Position numbers and translations under genes: made by a program
The notes under the pieces: generated by a model
Database searches by the model: none
What the model was told of the DNA's origin: nothing
The model's input: the letters and a program-made list of their open reading frames with translations, nothing else
DNA from: a virus
Length of the DNA stretch: 32,666 nt
Reading direction: 5' to 3' (one strand)
Virus record (IMG/VR): IMGVR_UViG_3300032086_002243
Span: 1 to 32,666 of that record
Part shown: one piece after another, positions 1-26,432 of the stretch
Position numbering within the stretch: the first letter of the stretch is position 1
Layout of the letters: each line of letters begins with the position of its first letter

Positions 1-637
1 GGTATTTGGGTCGAGCATTGGTGTGATTACTTTCTTGAACCATTCACGAACTGCGTCCATAGTCATGTCGCCCATTTCTGCGAGAACATCATCGAGTGCG
101 ACTACTGCGGGGTGTTCTCCACGAATAGCAGACCCTACACCAGTCGCTTGAATCCACGCACCGTTTGTGAACTGGATTCTTTGCTTGTTTGATTTACGCT
201 CATCAAGATACTTTCTTAGTTCGGGGTGTCGCCTCATATCTGTTTTGATTTCCTCAAGACGATTTGTTGCTTGTCGAATACTGGCGGAGAATAACCATAT
301 CTCCATAGGTTTGTTGTTGCGTTGCTCAAACAAAGCCATGTGCAGTAATTTGACACGGAGAGTAGCAGATTTAGAATGGGAACGGGGTGCGATGATGCAG
401 ACACGGTGAACTGATGCACCTTGCCTATCACCATACATATTGACCCATTCTTCGATATGTTCTCCCCATTTGTATTCGGGGGATAACCATTCGTAAAAAT
501 GGCGTATGTCGTGTTTTGACCTTTGAAAATTAAAGTTTGGAATTACCAAATAATCGCCACCGCTTACGGAATATTTTGTTCTGCTCTTTTTGTTGAGCCA
601 TAACTTCTTCTACATATTTTTCTAACTGCTTATCCAT
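1..637 (-). CDS. terL: Terminase large subunit, ATPase part (partial; apparent frameshift near 587-591)
   Basis: This is the packaging motor ATPase that drives viral DNA into preformed capsids. The reading frame that runs off the left edge contains a Walker-A-like APRSHSKSA followed by a Walker B VVALDD, preceded by GVGSAIRGEHP, the usual spacing and setting in large terminases. Only the N-terminal ATPase region is present; the nuclease domain lies outside the window. The best initiation site is the ATG at 635-637, which overlaps the stop of the upstream mini-gene (ATGGATAA). That frame, however, stops after 35 codons at 530-532. The ATPase frame is open only from about 618 and has no good start of its own. 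Removing one base from the A-run (T-run 587-591 on the given strand) joins the frames smoothly (MDKQLEKYVEEVMAQQKSRT then KYSVSGGDYLVIPNF). The family call is firm; whether the shift is a sequencing error or programmed is unknown. Confidence 0.85.
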
Positions 638-781: not shown

Positions 782-2149
782 TTAGTCCTCATGCGAAACT
801 GGTGCAAAGAATGAGCCGATGTAACCTTCTCTTTTGTCAATCATGTATGCCGCTAAACCTGCGGTGCTTGTAGTGTAACCTGCTCTTGCGTGGTATCTAT
901 CGTGACCTGCGAGGGACGGCATTTGAATAATCAAACAACCATCACGCTCAGTAAGTCTTTGGTGGTGAAGGTGTCCGTGAAACCACACTCTATGGTCGGT
1001 TATACCCCATTCTCTCTTAGCCTCAACGGACATAAGAGCAGGTAGGCTGATTTTCTTAGACAATCCATCACCGTGAGTGAATCCGAGCAAGGTGTCGCCA
1101 TACACAAAGTATCTGCGGTTGTTCGGGCTGATTGTGATTGTTACATCTTCGACACCTTCGTATGCCGCAGATAAATACATCATGAGGGCTATGGTGGAAT
1201 GACGGTCATGGTTGCCTGCCATCATCACAACTTCGACAGGTGCTACTTGGCGGAGAAGGTCAATATGTTCTCGTGCCAGTTGACAACCTGTGATTAGAAT
1301 TTGAGCAGGGCTACCGCACATATCTTGTGCAGTCCCCTTTGTTGTAGTTCCGTAGTCGTTATCTACATGAAACCAGTCCGAACCTGCACCGACATAGATT
1401 TTTTCGGGTGCTACGGCAATTCTCTCTACGAGTTTTTCTGTTTTTTCCATGAGTCGCTTACGAGCCTCTTCAAAGTTGTATGTTTCGCCTACTTCGTCCG
1501 ACCAACCATGCTTACCCCAGTGAAAATCGGTAGGGCAAACTACAAGGGCGTATGGGGAACGGGACGCAGGCAGTTTGAGTTTGGGGACAGTCTTTGGTGC
1601 TTTTTCAAGTGTGCCTTTGAGTTCATCGAGTTGCTTCTCAAGTTCTCGCCACTTGATAGCGTCTTTTTCAATCAAGGCGTATCTTTTTTGAACTTCGAGG
1701 GTTGCGATTTTAACTCTACGACGCATAGCGATAGTTTCTAAACTGTCCTCGTCGCTAAGTTCAAACAGTTCTTCGCTCGCAAGGGGGATAGAGCCACGAG
1801 TGATTGAGTGGGTTCGTCGCCTGTAGGAAATAAAATCAATGGGGAGGTCGTGAGTGACCGCCATAGTTTCGACACGCATACCGTTTGTATAGTTGGTAAT
1901 CATGCTTCGGTGCTTTTCGCCTGTAATCTCAAGTCGGCTTTTAGCCCAATTGTAAACATACAAATCTTCTTCTGCATTGTAGCGGTATTTGTTTTTATCA
2001 TTCGCTTGGCGGATAAGAGTCATCTCCCAACCTTTGATTGATTTTTCGGGGTGCTTTTCGTGTAAAAATCGAGCAAACTCTAATCTGCTCGAAAAATCTT
2101 CTTCATCATACTGGTCAATTATGTCGTCCATTGGTAAGGAACAACTCAC
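782..2149 (-). CDS. Calcineurin-like metallophosphoesterase, 455 aa
   Basis: A dimetal phosphoesterase. The C-terminal domain shows the full motif series in order: PTDFH (Asp208, His210), GSDWFH (Asp258), GNHD (312-315), THGDG (His359) and GHLHH (392-396). Residues about 1-190 form a charged, helix-rich extension, with a possible coiled coil at 145-185. Similar proteins occur beside terminases in phages, where they are predicted nucleases or phosphatases; the substrate here is unknown. The frame starts with GTG at 2149; there is no SD, but an AT-rich TTTTAAA lies about 28 nt upstream, fitting a leaderless start. The ATG six codons later (MDDIID) is the alternative start. It is the first gene of the unit with the mini-protein and terminase. 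Confidence 0.88.
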   Translation of the reverse strand: MSCSLPMDDIIDQYDEEDFSSRLEFARFLHEKHPEKSIKGWEMTLIRQANDKNKYRYNAEEDLYVYNWAKSRLEITGEKHRSMITNYTNGMRVETMAVTHDLPIDFISYRRRTHSITRGSIPLASEELFELSDEDSLETIAMRRRVKIATLEVQKRYALIEKDAIKWRELEKQLDELKGTLEKAPKTVPKLKLPASRSPYALVVCPTDFHWGKHGWSDEVGETYNFEEARKRLMEKTEKLVERIAVAPEKIYVGAGSDWFHVDNDYGTTTKGTAQDMCGSPAQILITGCQLAREHIDLLRQVAPVEVVMMAGNHDRHSTIALMMYLSAAYEGVEDVTITISPNNRRYFVYGDTLLGFTHGDGLSKKISLPALMSVEAKREWGITDHRVWFHGHLHHQRLTERDGCLIIQMPSLAGHDRYHARAGYTTSTAGLAAYMIDKREGYIGSFFAPVSHED

Positions 2150-4764: not shown

Positions 4765-5143
4765 GCTATCGGAACAAACAACTTACCCCACTCCGATAAG
4801 CCGACTGGGGAATTTCGCTACCTCCGACCTGTATGACGGGTCGGGCAGGGAGACTGGGTAGCATCAACCAAGACCTGCCACTGAAGGCAGTCACGATTCA
4901 CGGTCAAGGTATGCTGAGAACTTTCAGTTCAATGACGCACACCAAGACTCCAATGATGAACGAACGGATACCATGACAACGAATAGGCACTTGTGCCGAA
5001 TTCTCTCAACTCAAAAACCGTTTTTAGTGACTGGAATAGGGCAACTGGCAGGTCGTTTTCGATATACACGGTAGGCATTGTTTGAGCCTACCCTATCACA
5101 GTCCACCCTTGAATTAGGGAGACAACAAATGGAGGAATGAAAA
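4765..5143 (+). other. Long structured 5' leader of the 5144 gene (about 380 nt)
   Basis: No convincing ORF. Hairpins visible: CCGACC/GGTCGG with a 9-nt loop (4824-4844), CTGCC/GGCAG (4875-4890), GGCA/TGCC (4986-4997) and GGTAGGC/GCCTACC with a 9-nt loop (5070-5092). The SD GGAGGAA follows at about 5131. It could be a regulatory leader or hold an unrecognised small RNA; no known riboswitch class was recognised. Confidence 0.45.
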
Positions 5144-7438
5144 ATGAATAACATAACCCAAACAAGCGAAGATGTCGCTTACTTCATGGGCTTATTATGG
5201 GTCTTAGGACTCATGTTAGCCTGTGTGGTAGCGTATATCGGGAACAAACGAACAAACAACCTATACGGCAACCCAAAGCAACGACGAGTTGGCTTTGAGA
5301 TTGAGACAGTTGACCCCACCTATGATGTGAATAGGTCACGCCTCGCTCAATGGCTTACTCGTAAGTTCGGTCTACGAACTGAGGACATGAACTACACTCA
5401 TGAAGTTGTAGAACATACCAAACTTGTGACCGACGGCTCGCTAAGTGGTGGAACTGGAGTCGAAATCGTCTCTCCACCACTACATCAGCATGAGATTAGG
5501 TCTTACCTATCCAAGTTGACAAGCGGGATTCGTGGTATCATGGGTGTCAACCGTAGCACTGGACTTCATGTTCATGTTGAGATAATTGGCGATGAACAAG
5601 ACGGCAGTAACATTGGCGACGAATCACGAGTCGTAGGGGCTGTCGCAGTGGCTTACGGCTACTTTCAAGATGCTATCAACAAGATGGTCTCAAGGAGTCG
5701 TCGTAACAATGGGTCATACTGTGGTGAGATGGGATACGCTTACAATTATTTCAAAGCGTATCGCAGTGGTGGTTTAGCCTTTGAGCGAATGCCACTACGA
5801 GATGCTCTCAAGAATGTGTTTAACATCATGCACGATTATGACTATCATCGCATGAGTGAACATCGCTACCAAGCCGTAAACCCCACATCACTGCGAAAGT
5901 ATGGAACTGTTGAGTTCCGTCAACACCAAGGAACGACGAACCCGACCAAGATTGATGCTTGGTCACAATTCGTTATTCTGTTGACAGAACGATGCACTGA
6001 TTTCACATCACTTGAGACTCTTACAAACTTCAAGCGTGATGACATCGGGCAAATGTTCCGTTGGATAGGACTCAGCCCACAAGCGAGCCTTGTCCGATAC
6101 TACAAGAAGCGAAGTCAAGTGCTTGAAACTGGAGTCGTGACTGGTGTAAACGGTCAATGCAAAACCTGTAACTCAAACCGATGTGCTGGTGACTGCGTGA
6201 CTCAAGAATCATACTCAGTTGATGACCTACGAGAGTGGGCTACCAATGAATATGGTATGATGGGATTCGTAGGACTGTTGTTTAGCCTGTCGCCTTTGGT
6301 GGTAGCCATCGCACTCATCGTAGGGTGCGGAATTGGTGCGATTCACAATGCGGGTGCGAAGAAGTTCAAACACAAGAACCGAGCAGTCGCACTGTGGAAC
6401 AAACTCGCCATTCGTGGTGGTCAAGCATCGGGTGTGGCATGGCGTGACGGTCAAGGTAAACTGTGGTTCATCAAAAGCCCAGTTTCAAGCCGTCAACTAT
6501 CACACAACCTACGAAAGCAATTGGACGAGGACGCATCAGTCGTTATCATGCACACAAGGTATGCGACACATGGTGTAAACAACAAAGCCAATGCACACCC
6601 ACACTGGAGTTCATGCAACCGAATATGTCTTGTTCACAATGGCGTGGTTCACAACCACGACGATGTGTGGAAGGCTCTCGGACGAAAGCCAACTGGTGAT
6701 GTGGATTCAATGGCAGTTGCCGAGGCACTTGCCGTTGGTGGCATCGAAGAGGTTGTCAAGCACTGTGAAGGCTCAATGTCTCTCATATGGCTTGACCGTG
6801 ACCACAAGCATGACCTCAAGTTTTGGACGAATGGCGGTAATCCACTGGCATTCGGACGGCTTGACCACAAGACAAAGGGTGCGGTAGTCGTGGCTTCCAC
6901 GATGGACATACTCAAGTCCACCATGGGTAAGCGGCTCAAATCAGCCTACGAGTGTGTTGTAGGTCGTGAATACACTGTCACAAAGGACGGCTCAATCACA
7001 AGCCGTGACATCGAAGGCAGTGAGGCAACGGCTCGCACTTTCTATGACTGGCGAACTTGGAGTCGTGGTTCATACTACGATGATTGGCAACCGACCAAGC
7101 CACTCAAGGCAACTGGTAACGCTGACAACTGCTCACTACCTGCCAAGACAACCTCGGTTGAATACCCAGAGGACGATATGCCTAACGAAGATGTGATTCA
7201 CTTTTGGACTGAGATTCTTAGAGCAACTGTGAACGGCATTTACGATTGGCAACCTTGGAAGTCAATTGTTGATGAGAAGGTCACATACCACGGTTATGAC
7301 GGCTTCACCAATGAAGGCATTAGACCCGACGGCACGATGTATGAGTGTCCTCATGTGGTTCAATACGAACACGCATCAAGCCCAGTGCTTGAGAGGTTGC
7401 TCTACGGTCACTATGACCCATTGACTGCCGAAGTTTGA
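5144..7438 (+). CDS. Membrane-anchored amidoligase fused to class II glutamine amidotransferase, 764 aa
   Basis: Predicted to form an amide bond between a carboxylate and an amine, with ammonia from glutamine available from the second domain. Order of parts: transmembrane segment at about 12-33; glutamine-synthetase-fold amidoligase at about 45-320 (GFEIET 50-55, DGSL 97-100, EIVSPP 107-112, GLHVHV 140-145, VEFRQHQGT 256-264); a cysteine cluster CKTCNSNRCAGDC (339-351); a second hydrophobic segment (about 372-394); then an Ntn-type amidotransferase starting CGIGAI (Cys395) with HTRYATHG (470-477), HNG (498-500) and GDVDS (518-522), as in GlmS/PurF; then about 120 unassigned residues. The nucleophile Cys395 would have to be freed by cleavage to act as an N-terminal cysteine. 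The basic stretch after TM1 suggests the ligase is cytoplasmic. SD GGAGGAA precedes the ATG. Domain calls are by motif; the fusion and topology are inference. Confidence 0.85.
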   Translation: MNNITQTSEDVAYFMGLLWVLGLMLACVVAYIGNKRTNNLYGNPKQRRVGFEIETVDPTYDVNRSRLAQWLTRKFGLRTEDMNYTHEVVEHTKLVTDGSLSGGTGVEIVSPPLHQHEIRSYLSKLTSGIRGIMGVNRSTGLHVHVEIIGDEQDGSNIGDESRVVGAVAVAYGYFQDAINKMVSRSRRNNGSYCGEMGYAYNYFKAYRSGGLAFERMPLRDALKNVFNIMHDYDYHRMSEHRYQAVNPTSLRKYGTVEFRQHQGTTNPTKIDAWSQFVILLTERCTDFTSLETLTNFKRDDIGQMFRWIGLSPQASLVRYYKKRSQVLETGVVTGVNGQCKTCNSNRCAGDCVTQESYSVDDLREWATNEYGMMGFVGLLFSLSPLVVAIALIVGCGIGAIHNAGAKKFKHKNRAVALWNKLAIRGGQASGVAWRDGQGKLWFIKSPVSSRQLSHNLRKQLDEDASVVIMHTRYATHGVNNKANAHPHWSSCNRICLVHNGVVHNHDDVWKALGRKPTGDVDSMAVAEALAVGGIEEVVKHCEGSMSLIWLDRDHKHDLKFWTNGGNPLAFGRLDHKTKGAVVVASTMDILKSTMGKRLKSAYECVVGREYTVTKDGSITSRDIEGSEATARTFYDWRTWSRGSYYDDWQPTKPLKATGNADNCSLPAKTTSVEYPEDDMPNEDVIHFWTEILRATVNGIYDWQPWKSIVDEKVTYHGYDGFTNEGIRPDGTMYECPHVVQYEHASSPVLERLLYGHYDPLTAEV

Positions 7439-12784: not shown

Positions 12785-13045
12785 ATGAAAACCTACAAAG
12801 AATACCTACAAGGAATATACGAACCGATGACACAAGAGGACATTGATGCCTTGCACGAGGCACTCGATGACGGAGTGGACGAGCAACTGCTCACGGAGAT
12901 TCGCTACCTGCGTTCTCTACTGGCAGAAGCATACTGGTGGATTGGACGCAAAGCACCACCCAACAGTTCCATGCCGAAGCGATACCGCCACCTCATGCAA
13001 GAGGCGAACCGAATCAAGACTGAAATCAAGGAGGCGAAACAATGA
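12785..13045 (+). CDS. Hypothetical helical protein, 86 aa
   Basis: GAGGGA serves as SD for ATG 12785. The protein is almost entirely helical (LHEALDDGVDEQLLTEIRYL), ending in a basic helix. No known family is recognised. It overlaps the 13042 gene by 4 nt, and its last codons form that gene's SD (AAGGAGGCGA). Confidence 0.65.
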   Translation: MKTYKEYLQGIYEPMTQEDIDALHEALDDGVDEQLLTEIRYLRSLLAEAYWWIGRKAPPNSSMPKRYRHLMQEANRIKTEIKEAKQ

Positions 13046-13719
13046 ACATTTTCGTCCTTGACCAAAACCCGATTCGTGCGGCTCGAATGTTGGCAGACCA
13101 GCACTGCTCTAAGATGCTTGTCGAATCAACACAGATGCTTGCGGGTGCGTTGCTAAAGAACGGTTGCCCGTCCGATGAGATGCCCCTCACACAAAAGGGG
13201 ACTCACTACAAGGGTGCTTATCCGAATCACCCCTGTTCGATTTGGGCGGCAGAATCAACCGAGAACTTTGCATGGCTATGGAGTCACGCTATTGCGATTC
13301 TACAAGAATACAAGAAGCGATACGACAAGACAACGCATGGTTGCGAGAAACCACTCATGCAGATGCTTGACTTGGCTTCAATCTACATGGAAGATGTCGG
13401 TTGTGGCATGACACCGTTTGTTCGTGCCTTGAACCAAAGCAAAGGTGAGAACCTCGACCTGCTCGATGAGAGCATTGACACCGTGACCGCATATAGAGAA
13501 TTCTACATTCGTGACAAATCACGATTCGCTACATGGGAACGAGGCACATTCGCACCGTCATGGTGGCGTTGGGGATATGTCAAGGGCAGTGAACCACAAG
13601 TCACCGAGACTCGCACTGCGAGACAAGTATTCATGGAAGATGTCGTGGGTTCAATAACGGTGGAGGTTCAGCCTGCTGATGACTGGGACGACTGGGTGGG
13701 GGATTTGCTCGATGAGTAG
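13042..13719 (+). CDS. Conserved marine-phage-type protein of unknown function, 225 aa
   Basis: The N-terminus (MNIFVLDQNPIRAARMLADQ, then HCSKMLVESTQML), the middle (YKGAYPNHPCSIW) and a late FATWERGTFAPSWW segment match, from memory, a family widespread in T4-like and other marine phages where it is annotated only as hypothetical. The conserved Asp, His and Trp residues suggest an enzyme, but no activity is established to my knowledge. Strong SD, ATG overlapping the previous stop. Its presence here in an archaeal-type virus points to exchange among marine viruses or ancient sharing. Confidence 0.75.
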   Translation: MNIFVLDQNPIRAARMLADQHCSKMLVESTQMLAGALLKNGCPSDEMPLTQKGTHYKGAYPNHPCSIWAAESTENFAWLWSHAIAILQEYKKRYDKTTHGCEKPLMQMLDLASIYMEDVGCGMTPFVRALNQSKGENLDLLDESIDTVTAYREFYIRDKSRFATWERGTFAPSWWRWGYVKGSEPQVTETRTARQVFMEDVVGSITVEVQPADDWDDWVGDLLDE

Positions 13720-17127: not shown

Positions 17128-17931
17128 ATGATAACACAACACGGAACAATTGACATATATGCCACGGAACAATCGCTTACTCACATCAAAGACAATGTGA
17201 AGCAAGCAATCATCTATGTGGAGAATGAATATGGTGGTGCTACAAGCATCGCCATAGAAAGTATCGGTGCAGAACCAACAGGTTATATTGCTACTCATTT
17301 GATTAGCAATATGGTTTTCAACCAAACCGCAGAATACGATTCATTCGGGTGGAAGATTTCGACTTACGATGATAAAATCATCATCAACATAAACGAATAC
17401 CCCAATACACCAATCTATCCGCTTGAAGAAGCAAGAGGCACTTGGATTTACGCATACCCTCCGATTCGTGACTTGATTACATGGCTTCAATCAAACGGAA
17501 TAGAGGACATCACATACCTTGCCGCTACTACTATTCACGAACTGGTAGAAGGCGACCCGTTTAGACAACGAGAGCAACACGAAATACAAGTTGTTGATTT
17601 TGTAAGCGATGATTTTTCCGAGATAGAAGAAGGTAATCATCTCTTCATGAATCCGCCAGTTTGGATTGTGCTTGAAATCGCAAAGAGACTTTTGTTCAAG
17701 ACTGCCAAAGGTGTGTTTGTAGGATTCGACAAGGACGAGAAAGTAAATGTCGGTGGTGCTGAGGCTATCGCCAACTATCTACAAGACAACCTCGGCATTT
17801 CCTACACGAACGATAGCATGGAAAAAGCAATTGAAAAATTGAAAGAACAGATAAAAGCAGGGGAAGATATGAGGGCTGAAATCGAAGCCCTTATGAACAC
17901 GAAGCCTGCGAACAATACAATGTGGGGCTGA
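17128..17931 (+). CDS. Hypothetical protein at head of replication module, 267 aa
   Basis: Leaderless start at ATG 17128. The protein appears alpha/beta (IVLEIAKRLLFKTAKGVFVG) with a C-terminal coiled coil (about 225-255: MEKAIEKLKEQIKAGEDMRA). No nucleotide-binding motif. I could not place it in a family; a weak resemblance to PAC2-type proteasome-assembly chaperones is not strong enough to use. The next gene starts 2 nt after its stop. Confidence 0.65.
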   Translation: MITQHGTIDIYATEQSLTHIKDNVKQAIIYVENEYGGATSIAIESIGAEPTGYIATHLISNMVFNQTAEYDSFGWKISTYDDKIIININEYPNTPIYPLEEARGTWIYAYPPIRDLITWLQSNGIEDITYLAATTIHELVEGDPFRQREQHEIQVVDFVSDDFSEIEEGNHLFMNPPVWIVLEIAKRLLFKTAKGVFVGFDKDEKVNVGGAEAIANYLQDNLGISYTNDSMEKAIEKLKEQIKAGEDMRAEIEALMNTKPANNTMWG

Positions 17932-17933
17932 AT

Positions 17934-19241
17934 ATGAATATTTTCAAGACTATGGAAGAGTATGTTAATCGAAATCATTACATTGATGTCGAGGATAAAG
18001 TGCCTGTGTTTATTTGTTCAATTGGAACACACATCTTCAACGGGCTGAATAAGTGCGGGACTTGTCCCTTTGAGCCGACAGAAGATTTGGAAGGGTTCGC
18101 AATTGATTCCTGTATTCTACGGCATGACAAAGCACCCATCTATACACCGATGAGCCATGTCGCTGATACAAGGCTACACATTATTATGCGTGGTGTCAAA
18201 GGTTCGGGTAAATCTATCCTCATCAATCTGTTTCTCAGTGAAAAAACTGGGCTACTAAACAATAAGGAAAACGCAGAACTGGGTATCGGTTTTAGAACTG
18301 ACATCGGGGCTAACTCGATTACAGAAGCAGGTATGTTCGGTTCGGTCAATGAAGATGGCGAAGTAGTCGGTAGACCGCTTGCTCGTGAAATGTGTGGTGG
18401 ATTCCTCGGCTTTGAAGAATTCTCATCACTGATTGATGCAGGTAAGAAGGAACATAGCACTGACATGACTAACCAACTCTTGACTTCCACCGACAACGGC
18501 AGGGTCAAGAAAGTAATGAAGTCGGGTTGGGTAGAATACACTACCCGATACACTCTATGGGCGGGAACTCAACCTTCTCGATTTGAAATGGAGTCGGGTC
18601 TTGACCGAAGGTTCTTTGTCATTGACATTGACATGACTCCCGACAAGGAACTCAAATACAAACAGGCTCAAGCAAGACAATCATCAATGAGTCCAAGCGA
18701 GCGAGCAGAACTCGTCGCTATGGCTGAGAAGATTCGTAACTTCTTTACCGAGAGGGCTATGGAGGTCATCATGAACCCTCCGAAGTCAATCTACTTTGAA
18801 GATGGATTCAATGAATGGTTGTTCCGTCCCGAAGTGCGAAGCCACGAGGCTGATTTGTTTCGTCGTTTGGCTCTCGGATATGCTATCATGTCCGAGGACT
18901 ACGACGGTGGAGATGTGCTTCACATCTCTATGACAGATGAACTACGAGATATTCTCGACAGGTGTTTGCAGATGCGTAGAAATGTCATGGATTCCGACTT
19001 GAATCTAATCAAGACTGCGTTTTGGAATACTCAAATGAGCCGTTCCCAACTTATCAAAGAGGTAAGTCGCATGATTACTGGTGGCGACTACCAATCAGCG
19101 AAGCGATGGATTAGTGACAACCTACTCCACCAATCGTGGTATTCGGAGGAAAAGTCCGATAACGCAGGGCGTGGTCGAAAAGGTGTCGCTATCTACATCG
19201 GCAACAAACCAGTAGAGGCAACCAAGGAGTTGATACAATGA
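17934..19241 (+). CDS. AAA+ ATPase, likely replicative helicase (MCM-like) candidate, 435 aa
   Basis: Walker A GVKGSGKS (87-94), Walker B-like FLGFEEF (157-163), a sensor-1-like region LWAGTQPS (208-215) and arginine-finger-like LDRRFF (223-228) define a P-loop AAA+ ATPase. Upstream, Cys28, Cys41, Cys44 and Cys60 could bind zinc, as in MCM N-terminal domains. The C-terminal about 70 residues (QLIKEVSRMITGGDYQSAKR) look like a winged helix, again MCM-like. Helicase role is inferred from the replisome context; a packaging or remodelling ATPase is the alternative. Starts at ATG 17934; SD is weak. Confidence 0.7.
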   Translation: MNIFKTMEEYVNRNHYIDVEDKVPVFICSIGTHIFNGLNKCGTCPFEPTEDLEGFAIDSCILRHDKAPIYTPMSHVADTRLHIIMRGVKGSGKSILINLFLSEKTGLLNNKENAELGIGFRTDIGANSITEAGMFGSVNEDGEVVGRPLAREMCGGFLGFEEFSSLIDAGKKEHSTDMTNQLLTSTDNGRVKKVMKSGWVEYTTRYTLWAGTQPSRFEMESGLDRRFFVIDIDMTPDKELKYKQAQARQSSMSPSERAELVAMAEKIRNFFTERAMEVIMNPPKSIYFEDGFNEWLFRPEVRSHEADLFRRLALGYAIMSEDYDGGDVLHISMTDELRDILDRCLQMRRNVMDSDLNLIKTAFWNTQMSRSQLIKEVSRMITGGDYQSAKRWISDNLLHQSWYSEEKSDNAGRGRKGVAIYIGNKPVEATKELIQ

Positions 19242-20684: not shown

Positions 20685-21343
20685 TTATTTTTACAGATGA
20701 CGATACAAAATATCGAAAGGGCGATTACATTTCTATGTATGGCGAAATGACAATCTCTCCCACCGCACCCAATACTACATTTATCTACCACCCAAGGCAG
20801 ACTTTTACTGAGAAGGACGCTATTTACTGGGCTGATGTAGTCCCGTTCCGAATGGTAGTCGTGACAAACAAACTACCTAAGTTGACTGATAAGAGCAAAC
20901 ATTGTGTCATTGTAGACCAACAACTCAAGGTCAAGCAAGACTTGTATCGAATGACTCGTGCGGTTCTTTGTTGGGCTGATAGGGACAGGGCATTCAAGAT
21001 GATGGGTCAACTACCTATCCCTTATGTCAACGCCTTTCTCAAAGCCAATGTGAACGACATCGAGTTCGGTAGAATTCTCGCTCGATGCAAGTTTACTCTT
21101 GCAGATGATTACACGAGAGCAGTTATTTCCTACGGTGTCAAGCCAGTCAAGGAGTTCAAGAACCCACAGAAGAAGTCGAGCAACGATTATATACTGCCGA
21201 GCGATGTTAGACAAACAGACAAGCACATGGAAATCATCATCAATAATGATGTTGTGGTTTCAAACGCCATAAGGCGTGACGAACCCGAAGTGCTTCCGTC
21301 TAAACTCCCTAAGAGGAAACAGAAGGTGATAGAATGGATATGA
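20675..21343 (+). CDS. Hypothetical protein, possible degenerate clamp-loader partner, 222 aa
   Basis: Overlaps the previous gene by 10 nt. The first 100 residues read like an alpha/beta nucleotide-binding fold without a Walker A (FRMVVVTNKLPKLTDKSKHC, VIVDQQ), followed by a helical part and a basic tail (KLPKRKQK). Position three genes before the RFC small subunit, which has no large-subunit partner in the window, makes a second clamp-loader subunit conceivable. No motif proves this. A TTATATACTGCCGA box lies inside it at 21187. Confidence 0.5.
   Translation: MGVIIFTDDDTKYRKGDYISMYGEMTISPTAPNTTFIYHPRQTFTEKDAIYWADVVPFRMVVVTNKLPKLTDKSKHCVIVDQQLKVKQDLYRMTRAVLCWADRDRAFKMMGQLPIPYVNAFLKANVNDIEFGRILARCKFTLADDYTRAVISYGVKPVKEFKNPQKKSSNDYILPSDVRQTDKHMEIIINNDVVVSNAIRRDEPEVLPSKLPKRKQKVIEWI
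21187..21200 (+). promoter_or_regulatory. Possible internal promoter TTATATACTGCCGA
   Basis: Full match to the replication-module promoter family, but inside the 20675-21343 coding sequence (DYILPSD). It could drive the cyclotransferase gene at 21334 with a leader of about 115 nt, or be coincidence. Confidence 0.35.
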
Positions 21344-21702
21344 AATACTTGTTTGTATATGGAACGCTAAAGAATGGAAAGTCTAATCACAATGCGTTCT
21401 TAAGTGACGCTAAGTTGGTTGGAGAAGCAAAGACTGATAAGCAGTGGGGCTTGGTGGATTTGGGTCATTACCCTGCCATGATTATGAGCCATAAGTCTGT
21501 CGAAGGTGAATTGTATGAGATAGATGAGCAGATTCTTGCTCGTATTGACAGGCTTGAGGGTGTTGATGTGTTCGGAATGTATAGCCGACAACTCATACCA
21601 GTGTTTGTAGATGGCGTAGAATATCCCGCATGGACTTACATTATGTTCCGCAGGGATTTCCACCGACCAATAACAGAAAACGAAATCACATCGAGTTGGT
21701 AA
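21334..21702 (+). CDS. Gamma-glutamylcyclotransferase/AIG2-like protein, 122 aa
   Basis: FVYGTLKNG (7-15), DLGHYPAM (42-49), VEGELYEID (56-64) and IDRLEGVDVFGMYSR (71-85) are the signature of the GGCT/AIG2 fold; Glu75 in RLEG is the expected catalytic acid. Such enzymes release 5-oxoproline from gamma-glutamyl amines. Length is typical of the single-domain family. Phage members are predicted partners of amidoligases and glutamine amidotransferases, and the window has that pair fused at 5144. It overlaps the preceding gene; ATG 21340 is an alternative start. Biochemical role here is inference. Confidence 0.85.
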   Translation: MDMKYLFVYGTLKNGKSNHNAFLSDAKLVGEAKTDKQWGLVDLGHYPAMIMSHKSVEGELYEIDEQILARIDRLEGVDVFGMYSRQLIPVFVDGVEYPAWTYIMFRRDFHRPITENEITSSW

Positions 21703-25389: not shown

Positions 25390-25620
25390 ATGGACACACT
25401 ACAATTAGCAGAAGCGGTTGTTAAGCAATCGGAGTTAATCATCTCCACTTTCGAGGCGATTACTAAAAGGCTTGAAGAATTGGAGTCAAGAATTGCCGAC
25501 ACTGAAAACGCTCTCGATGATGTTGACGATAATGGGAAGTTGTATAAGGCAGTTGTCGAACTACAAGACGAAGTAGCAAAAATGAATCCCGATGCGATGC
25601 TGATACACAGAATGTGGTGA
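25390..25620 (+). CDS. Small coiled-coil protein, 76 aa
   Basis: ATG 25390 follows GGAGTGGTGAGC. Residues about 10-60 form a heptad-like helix (FEAITKRLEELESRIADTEN). No other feature. It lies between the RecA-like ATPase and the clamp and could be an oligomerising accessory factor. Confidence 0.55.
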   Translation: MDTLQLAEAVVKQSELIISTFEAITKRLEELESRIADTENALDDVDDNGKLYKAVVELQDEVAKMNPDAMLIHRMW

Positions 25621-25625
25621 GTCTC

Positions 25626-26432
25626 ATGAAGGTGAATAATAAGATACTGAGTCATCTGTTATCTGCCACTTCAAGAGAACAATTCATCAACGGTAAAAAT
25701 CAACAACAGGTTAGTAGTTGTGTATTGAATCTAAAAGATTCAGTCCTCCAAACTATCTGCATAGTCAAGGACGGCAAGACCAGTCTCTCAAGATTCTCAT
25801 GCAAAGTGGACGAGCAGAAAGACGATACTATCCCTGTTCCCGATATTGATAGACTAAATGGTGTTCTCAAGTATCATGGAGAGACAGTGACACTGACTTT
25901 CAACAAAGAAAAAGACTCAGTGCTTGTCAAGTCCTCTAACAAACAGACTACTCTTGTTGGTGGTTTCAACTCCAAGGCTTACGAGAACAGTAGAGATACT
26001 CTCGCCCAAAGAGAAGAACAGGCTATCGAAAGGTCTAAACAAATCAAAGGCGACACTTACATTGTTAAAGACGGTGAGCAAATCAATCCGTTCTTTACTG
26101 CTGAGATAGAATCTTCGGTGCTTTGGGACGCTCTTAGGTGCGATGGAATCAACGGGCAGAAGTTAAACCGATACAGATTTGACTTCGACGGTAGCGAGTT
26201 ATCTGTTTCTGTTGGCGACCATTTCAAAGGTATGACCACCAGTATTCTGTGCGACGAGTATTCGGGTGATGACTTTACTGCTGAGTTTGAAGGTGGATTA
26301 GAAAACATCATCAAGCATTACAGTGGTAAGGTTAAACTGTCATTCCTTGACTTCTCGGAATACAATCAAGGGACTCGACTGATACTGAGTTTTACTAACG
26401 GTGACTGGGTATTTCAAGCGGGGGTATTGTGA
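25626..26432 (+). CDS. PCNA-like sliding clamp, 268 aa
   Basis: Processivity clamp for the polymerase. Recognised from overall pattern: paired beta-alpha-beta repeats, VTLTFNKEKDSVLVKSSNKQ in the first half, and a C-terminal FEGGLENIIKHY, KVKLSFLDF, TRLILSFTNGDWVF series like PCNA domain 2. Length fits PCNA (about 250). Divergent, with no obvious interdomain-loop motif. The ATG at 25626 has GGTGA as SD; an ATG 12 nt earlier is possible. Flanked by RecA-like ATPase and polymerase genes. Confidence 0.65.
   Translation: MKVNNKILSHLLSATSREQFINGKNQQQVSSCVLNLKDSVLQTICIVKDGKTSLSRFSCKVDEQKDDTIPVPDIDRLNGVLKYHGETVTLTFNKEKDSVLVKSSNKQTTLVGGFNSKAYENSRDTLAQREEQAIERSKQIKGDTYIVKDGEQINPFFTAEIESSVLWDALRCDGINGQKLNRYRFDFDGSELSVSVGDHFKGMTTSILCDEYSGDDFTAEFEGGLENIIKHYSGKVKLSFLDFSEYNQGTRLILSFTNGDWVFQAGVL

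Follow-up and report, generated by a model that had tools for sequence, protein, structure and literature searches.

The window, by which we mean the whole stretch of 32,666 nucleotides analysed, carries an ORF of 764 amino acids in which an amidoligase is followed by a class II glutamine amidotransferase (GATase), and this leads to the question how a glutaminase of this class can work when its catalytic cysteine is residue 395 of the chain. In class II amidotransferases the nucleophile is an N-terminal Cys, which is exposed by loss of Met or by autocatalytic removal of a short peptide (PMC9140057). The ORF starts with ATG, and its parts are as follows.

5131..5135, plus strand: Shine-Dalgarno sequence GGAGG, 8 nt before the ATG; most homologues have GGAGG at their own start
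5144..7438, plus strand: fusion ORF, comprising a first transmembrane segment, amidoligase, four-Cys cluster, hydrophobic segment 2, class II glutamine amidotransferase and a C-terminal extension
5183..5239, plus strand: hydrophobic segment 1, aa 14-32
5276..6133, plus strand: Amidoligase_2 domain, glutamine synthetase (GS) fold, aa 45-330
6158..6196, plus strand: four-Cys cluster C339-x2-C342-x4-C347-x3-C351, a putative metal site
6266..6322, plus strand: hydrophobic segment 2, aa 375-393
6320..6328, plus strand: junction V393-G394|C395 followed by G-I-G, the proposed processing site
6326..7063, plus strand: class II (Ntn) glutamine amidotransferase domain, aa 395-640

A preliminary description, made from the sequence alone, had read this ORF as a membrane amidoligase fused to an Ntn glutamine amidotransferase, and profile searches placed each half in the family named for it, above the curated cut-offs. 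Among the Pfam profiles, Amidoligase_2 (PF12224) matched aa 45-277 with an E-value of 5.9e-24 and 85.7 bits against a curated cut-off of 22, and GATase_6 (PF13522) matched aa 463-578 with an E-value of 9.4e-16, above its cut-off, with GATase_7 and GATase_4 matching as well; the PHROG amidoligase and GATase families were both matched by the fusion protein. Both folds were also found in an AlphaFold2 model made from 21 homologues, in which pLDDT is mostly 80-94 in the two domains and poor at aa 358-392. When aa 45-336 of the model were compared with known structures, the Z-scores were 12.9 for YbdK (1r8g), 13.2 for the YbdK-type ligase 1tt4 and 12.4-12.6 for glutamine synthetases, and for aa 395-640 they were 25-27 for PurF and GlmS, with residue 395 superposed on the Cys1 of both; the best solved relative of the amidotransferase half in the PDB is the GlmS glutaminase 1xff. 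The fusion protein has the fold (Z about 13) and the Amidoligase_2 profile in common with GS-fold amidoligases and YbdK carboxylate-amine ligases but, unlike these, it adds a membrane segment N-terminally and a Cys cluster and a glutaminase C-terminally.

The catalytic residues are conserved in both halves. In the alignment of 21 homologues the amidoligase motifs GxExE, DxS, HxH and ExR, whose acidic, His and Arg residues may form its metal or ATP sites, are invariant, as are the individual residues G50, E52, E54, D97, S99, E107, H142, H144, R241, E257, R259 and H261. The Arg, Asn-Gly and Asp that accompany the Ntn fold in glutaminases are present as R472, N499-G500 and D521, and these together with C395-G-I-G are likewise invariant. 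The Cys cluster, which had been noticed earlier, is at least 90% conserved. L091, L092, L093 and other long fused members have, between the amidoligase and hydrophobic segment 2, a second Cys-rich zinc-ribbon-like insert that is missing in the window protein.

The two hydrophobic segments of the preliminary description are present in all 21 homologues; the best Kyte-Doolittle window of both is 2.0-2.9 in 21/21 and no other region exceeds 1.53. Segment 2 has a Pro in its middle in 20/21, ends one residue before the nucleophile and is modelled with pLDDT <50. The mean flank charges before and after are -1.7 and +2.0 for segment 1, and -2.8 and +4.6 for segment 2. By the positive-inside rule segment 1 would be N-out/C-in, which fits an amidoligase placed in the cytoplasm. 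Since each segment is acidic before and basic after, this rule predicts that they cannot both be simple spans with both enzymes cytoplasmic, and segment 2 may be re-entrant, cut first, or outside the membrane.

Viral contigs other than the window were then the basis for deciding whether the fusion is real. Both domains were present in seven of the 50 searched records of PolB relatives, in a single frame in all seven, and an alignment scan of viral contigs gave 20 fused loci besides the window, all with the single-ORF architecture, which rules out a frame error or a chance fusion in this contig. The first search had been seeded on VGCGIG, but this did not bias the result, as the same 20 loci came back when only the glutaminase domain was scanned for, with seeds off the junction. 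In the tree the 21 fused proteins and a split relative, L119, form one clade with support of 0.93-0.99, and in six homologue pairs dN/dS is well below 1 in the amidoligase, the linker and the glutaminase, that is, all three are under purifying selection. One scan of cellular genomes, of limited reach, gave three partial relatives, two of which are separate pairs in Planctomycetes-type MAGs, and a plasmid scan of limited reach gave single-domain matches only. The ORF is thus a genuine fusion, conserved and specific to one clade, of two known enzymes, an Amidoligase_2 protein and a class II (Ntn) glutamine amidotransferase.

The following other genes of the window were noted.

1-549, minus strand: large-terminase-like protein, N-terminal 183 aa, running off the contig and related to TerL of relatives
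782-2149, minus strand: metallophosphoesterase / DNA-repair exonuclease-like gene, 455 aa (PHROG 704, 3.1e-58)
13042-13719, plus strand: pyrimidine dimer DNA glycosylase-like gene (PF03013, 1.3e-6; PHROG 624, 7.4e-51)
17922-19241, plus strand: 439-aa gene, unmatched in Pfam, NCBIfam and phage searches, with the P-loop-like motif GVKGSGKS; it may encode a helicase or packaging ATPase
21334..21702, plus strand: gamma-glutamylamine cyclotransferase (GGACT/AIG2-like; PF06094, 1.4e-26), a candidate pathway partner of the fusion
25614-26432, plus strand: sliding clamp, with no convincing Pfam match but an AlphaFold model of PCNA fold (pLDDT 92)

The window is identified as a piece of a tailed virus by the terminase fragment at its left end. 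The claim that the virus is archaeal, probably infecting marine archaea, stands as a likelihood: the host is probably archaeal because the window has an RFC small subunit (profile match 2.1e-37), the PCNA-fold clamp and a PolB whose matches in a phage collection are headed by haloarchaeal tailed viruses at 22-23% identity, but this falls short of proof, as the clamp model matches Haloferax PCNA with Z 19 and T4 gp45 ties with it at 18.0. The matches of TerL, the MCP and the 439-aa gene, searched to assign a host, were weak or absent; no tRNA genes were found in the window, and no amidoligase is mentioned in the papers on magroviruses and haloarchaeal tailed viruses. The fusion gene lies at a divergent boundary, with the minus-strand phosphoesterase about 3-5 kb upstream in most loci. 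In 13 relatives (L100:8851-9270 and 12 other loci) a small conserved ORF of about 80-170 aa as called follows the fusion immediately; it was not found in the window. The fusion had been called the largest gene outside the replisome, and it is the longest ORF of this fragment (PolB has 756 aa), but this does not extend to the whole genome, as a related 60-kb record has ORFs of 1315 and 2287 aa in its structural region. The elaborate promoter and leader once ascribed to it dwindled to a 7-bp hairpin at 5070-5092: when a conserved leader RNA or riboswitch was sought upstream of the fusion, Rfam gave no match and the hairpin was absent from relatives.

Pairs of amidoligase and GATase as separate phage genes, to which the preliminary description had alluded, do occur in Arthrobacter phages and OM43 phages (PMC10580990), and such pairs are discussed in PMC5513430 as well as in PMC10580990. 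The proteins of Arthrobacter phages Kovu, Ottawa and Wheelbite and of OM43 phages belong to the same two families, in the same order, with about 30% identity to the fusion. Unlike in the fusion, the phage genes are separate, those tested encode no hydrophobic segments, and the GATase begins with Met-Cys. In Kovu, genes for a GGCT, the amidoligase and the GATase are separate and adjacent. All three enzymes, amidoligase, GATase and GGCT/GGACT, are encoded in the window genome too, but here the pair is fused and GGACT is about 14 kb downstream of the fusion end; GGACT, which the preliminary description had overlooked, is the third member of a set that bacterial phages are known to carry as separate genes. 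It is present in the window, in eight of nine fused records >43 kb, the ninth of which appears not to cover its position, and in six more window-clade records whose contigs stop short of the fusion, and it is absent from all 16 records of the sister PolB clade. This co-occurrence could reflect only the common descent of one virus clade. In G008, G013, G036 and others, of 55-63 kb, GGACT lies about 16-19 kb from the fusion; for G008 and G036 this distance holds only when it is counted from one contig end on to the other, and this suggests circularly permuted genomes of about 60 kb among them.

Two purposes have been proposed for such genes. In PMC10580990, which cites earlier work, the pair is suggested to change the cell wall against superinfection. 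For the amidoligase, GATase and GGCT genes of Phage-ZRK32 a role in nitrogen metabolism has been proposed (PMC10945688), and by analogy the fusion could supply the infected cell with glutamine-derived metabolites as an auxiliary function with no surface modification. We regard this, which concerns purpose and not mechanism, as rather unlikely, because the evidence in Phage-ZRK32 consists of growth effects and such a role would not call for membrane tethering.

Among 58 non-fused viral homologues, 57 have their start codon immediately in front of the catalytic Cys and the remaining one is truncated; in all 21 fused proteins the Cys is internal with no start codon immediately before it. An internal translation start yielding an N-terminal Cys is ruled out, as 0/21 have a start there and GGAGG, which stands before the true starts, is missing from almost all internal ones. 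The preliminary description was right about both families, their covalent fusion, the hydrophobic segments and the conserved catalytic residues, and had missed that the class II nucleophile is internal. The fold, the active-site residues and the position of Cys1 are like those of PurF/GlmS-type amidotransferases, including propeptide-bearing PurF, some of which need the residues before Cys removed; in the fusion, in contrast, the glutaminase sits C-terminal to another enzyme, and 394 aa with two hydrophobic segments, not a Met or a short propeptide, precede the Cys. As Cys395 is internal, the fusion as drawn should, by analogy with these enzymes, be inactive as a glutaminase until it is cut before Cys395. 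The chain might instead stay uncleaved, with the glutaminase half a structural or regulatory relic, or weakly active with an amide-linked Cys, and the amidoligase using free ammonia or another amine. That all members except L119 keep both halves in one frame agrees with this, but a relic would not retain glutaminase motifs that are all invariant in a domain under purifying selection, and class II GATases use an N-terminal Cys (PMC9140057), so that we consider an uncleaved chain unlikely.

Because all the glutaminase residues stay invariant, we infer that the fused chain is cut at Gly394|Cys395. The junction reads V-G-C-G-I-G in 20 of the 21 fused proteins and V-N-C-G-I-G in L113, the Val and CGIG being invariant. 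Gly at position -1 matches the self-processing Ntn precursors, which are cut immediately before the nucleophile, typically after Gly; the proteasome, another Ntn hydrolase, self-cleaves at Gly(-1)|Thr1 (PMC4792962), and some class II GATases carry a few residues before Cys that are removed autocatalytically (PMC9140057). One point against the proposal is that this Gly is replaced by Asn in L113 and L119. A host protease, for example a signal-peptidase-like or a rhomboid-type intramembrane one, could also cut at segment 2 and free a soluble glutaminase, and the place of the proposed cut, where a hydrophobic segment has just ended and after the small residues V-G, would suit it. However, the invariant residues extend into the Ntn side of the junction, Gly(-1) fits self-cleavage, and a cut at the outer face would part the glutaminase from the ATP-dependent ligase, which makes a host protease distinctly unlikely. 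Lipoprotein-like processing, with [LIVT]-V-G-C as a lipobox, a lipid-modified Cys395 and the glutaminase anchored outside the cell, is barely conceivable, for although the residues before the Cys are lipobox-like in most members, lipoboxes end N-terminal signal peptides and the motif here, at residues 392-395, lies behind an enzyme domain with its Cys following residue 394, and lipidation would destroy as a catalyst a Cys that aligns with the catalytic Cys1 of GlmS/PurF.

Self-cleavage at Gly394|Cys395 can also be viewed from L119, which is the sister of the fused L113 and is nested in the fused clade. In L119 the amidoligase and the glutaminase are two overlapping ORFs, and the glutaminase ORF has its own GGAGG and retains a 16-residue hydrophobic leader, MLMLLSLLLPLAILVN|CGIG. 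The split could be a sequencing indel; the GGAGG of the second ORF argues against this. As the separate glutaminase of L119 keeps the leader before CGIG, the leader is part of the glutaminase module.

A probable explanation, to which we give a probability of about 0.6, is that the ORF encodes a membrane-tethered glutamine-dependent amidoligase that is made as a single-chain precursor, the glutaminase being freed by cleavage at Gly394|Cys395 and its ammonia feeding the amidoligase. The observed architecture, predicted folds, conserved active sites and junction, and co-occurrence with GGACT are its basis, and from these we infer cleavage, autocatalysis, topology, ammonia transfer, activity and substrate. 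Segment 1 would anchor the GS-fold amidoligase at the cytoplasmic face, where ATP is, and in the newly made glutaminase the 394 preceding residues would block the nucleophile Cys395. The catalytic alpha-amine would become free once the chain is cut at Gly394|Cys395, for which an N-to-S acyl shift carried out by the Ntn domain itself is the most likely means, and the junction would act like the propeptide of PurF-type amidotransferases, but a far larger one. The hydrophobic segments and the Cys cluster would keep the cut halves in contact, and the freed glutaminase would release ammonia from glutamine and hand it to the amidoligase, which would activate a carboxylate with ATP and then amidate it. 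The group to be amidated is probably a gamma-glutamyl or another acidic one, carried by a small molecule, a peptide or an envelope component, and the cyclotransferase about 14 kb downstream may recycle or remove gamma-glutamyl products. We propose more tentatively, at somewhat less than even odds, that this is a self-activating membrane polyprotein, in which the 394-residue 'propeptide' of an Ntn glutaminase is the very ligase that it serves and a single autocatalytic cut where a hydrophobic segment ends would turn the inactive chain into a coupled two-subunit amidating enzyme. In the literature searched, no description was found of such a ligase-as-propeptide arrangement for class II amidotransferases.

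The noteworthy feature is an Ntn nucleophile buried in the chain where a hydrophobic segment ends, and not the pairing of the enzymes, which is already known from phages. Amidoligase-amidotransferase pairs recur in many phages, and with the fusion the two activities, the way they are coupled and the activating cut can all be tested on a single protein. The host of this virus probably has no peptidoglycan, and a fused, membrane-bound form in such a virus speaks against a role confined to peptidoglycan. If the proposed processing is true, the fusion would stand out among class II amidotransferases by a nucleophile far inside the chain, and it would test how far Ntn self-processing stretches.
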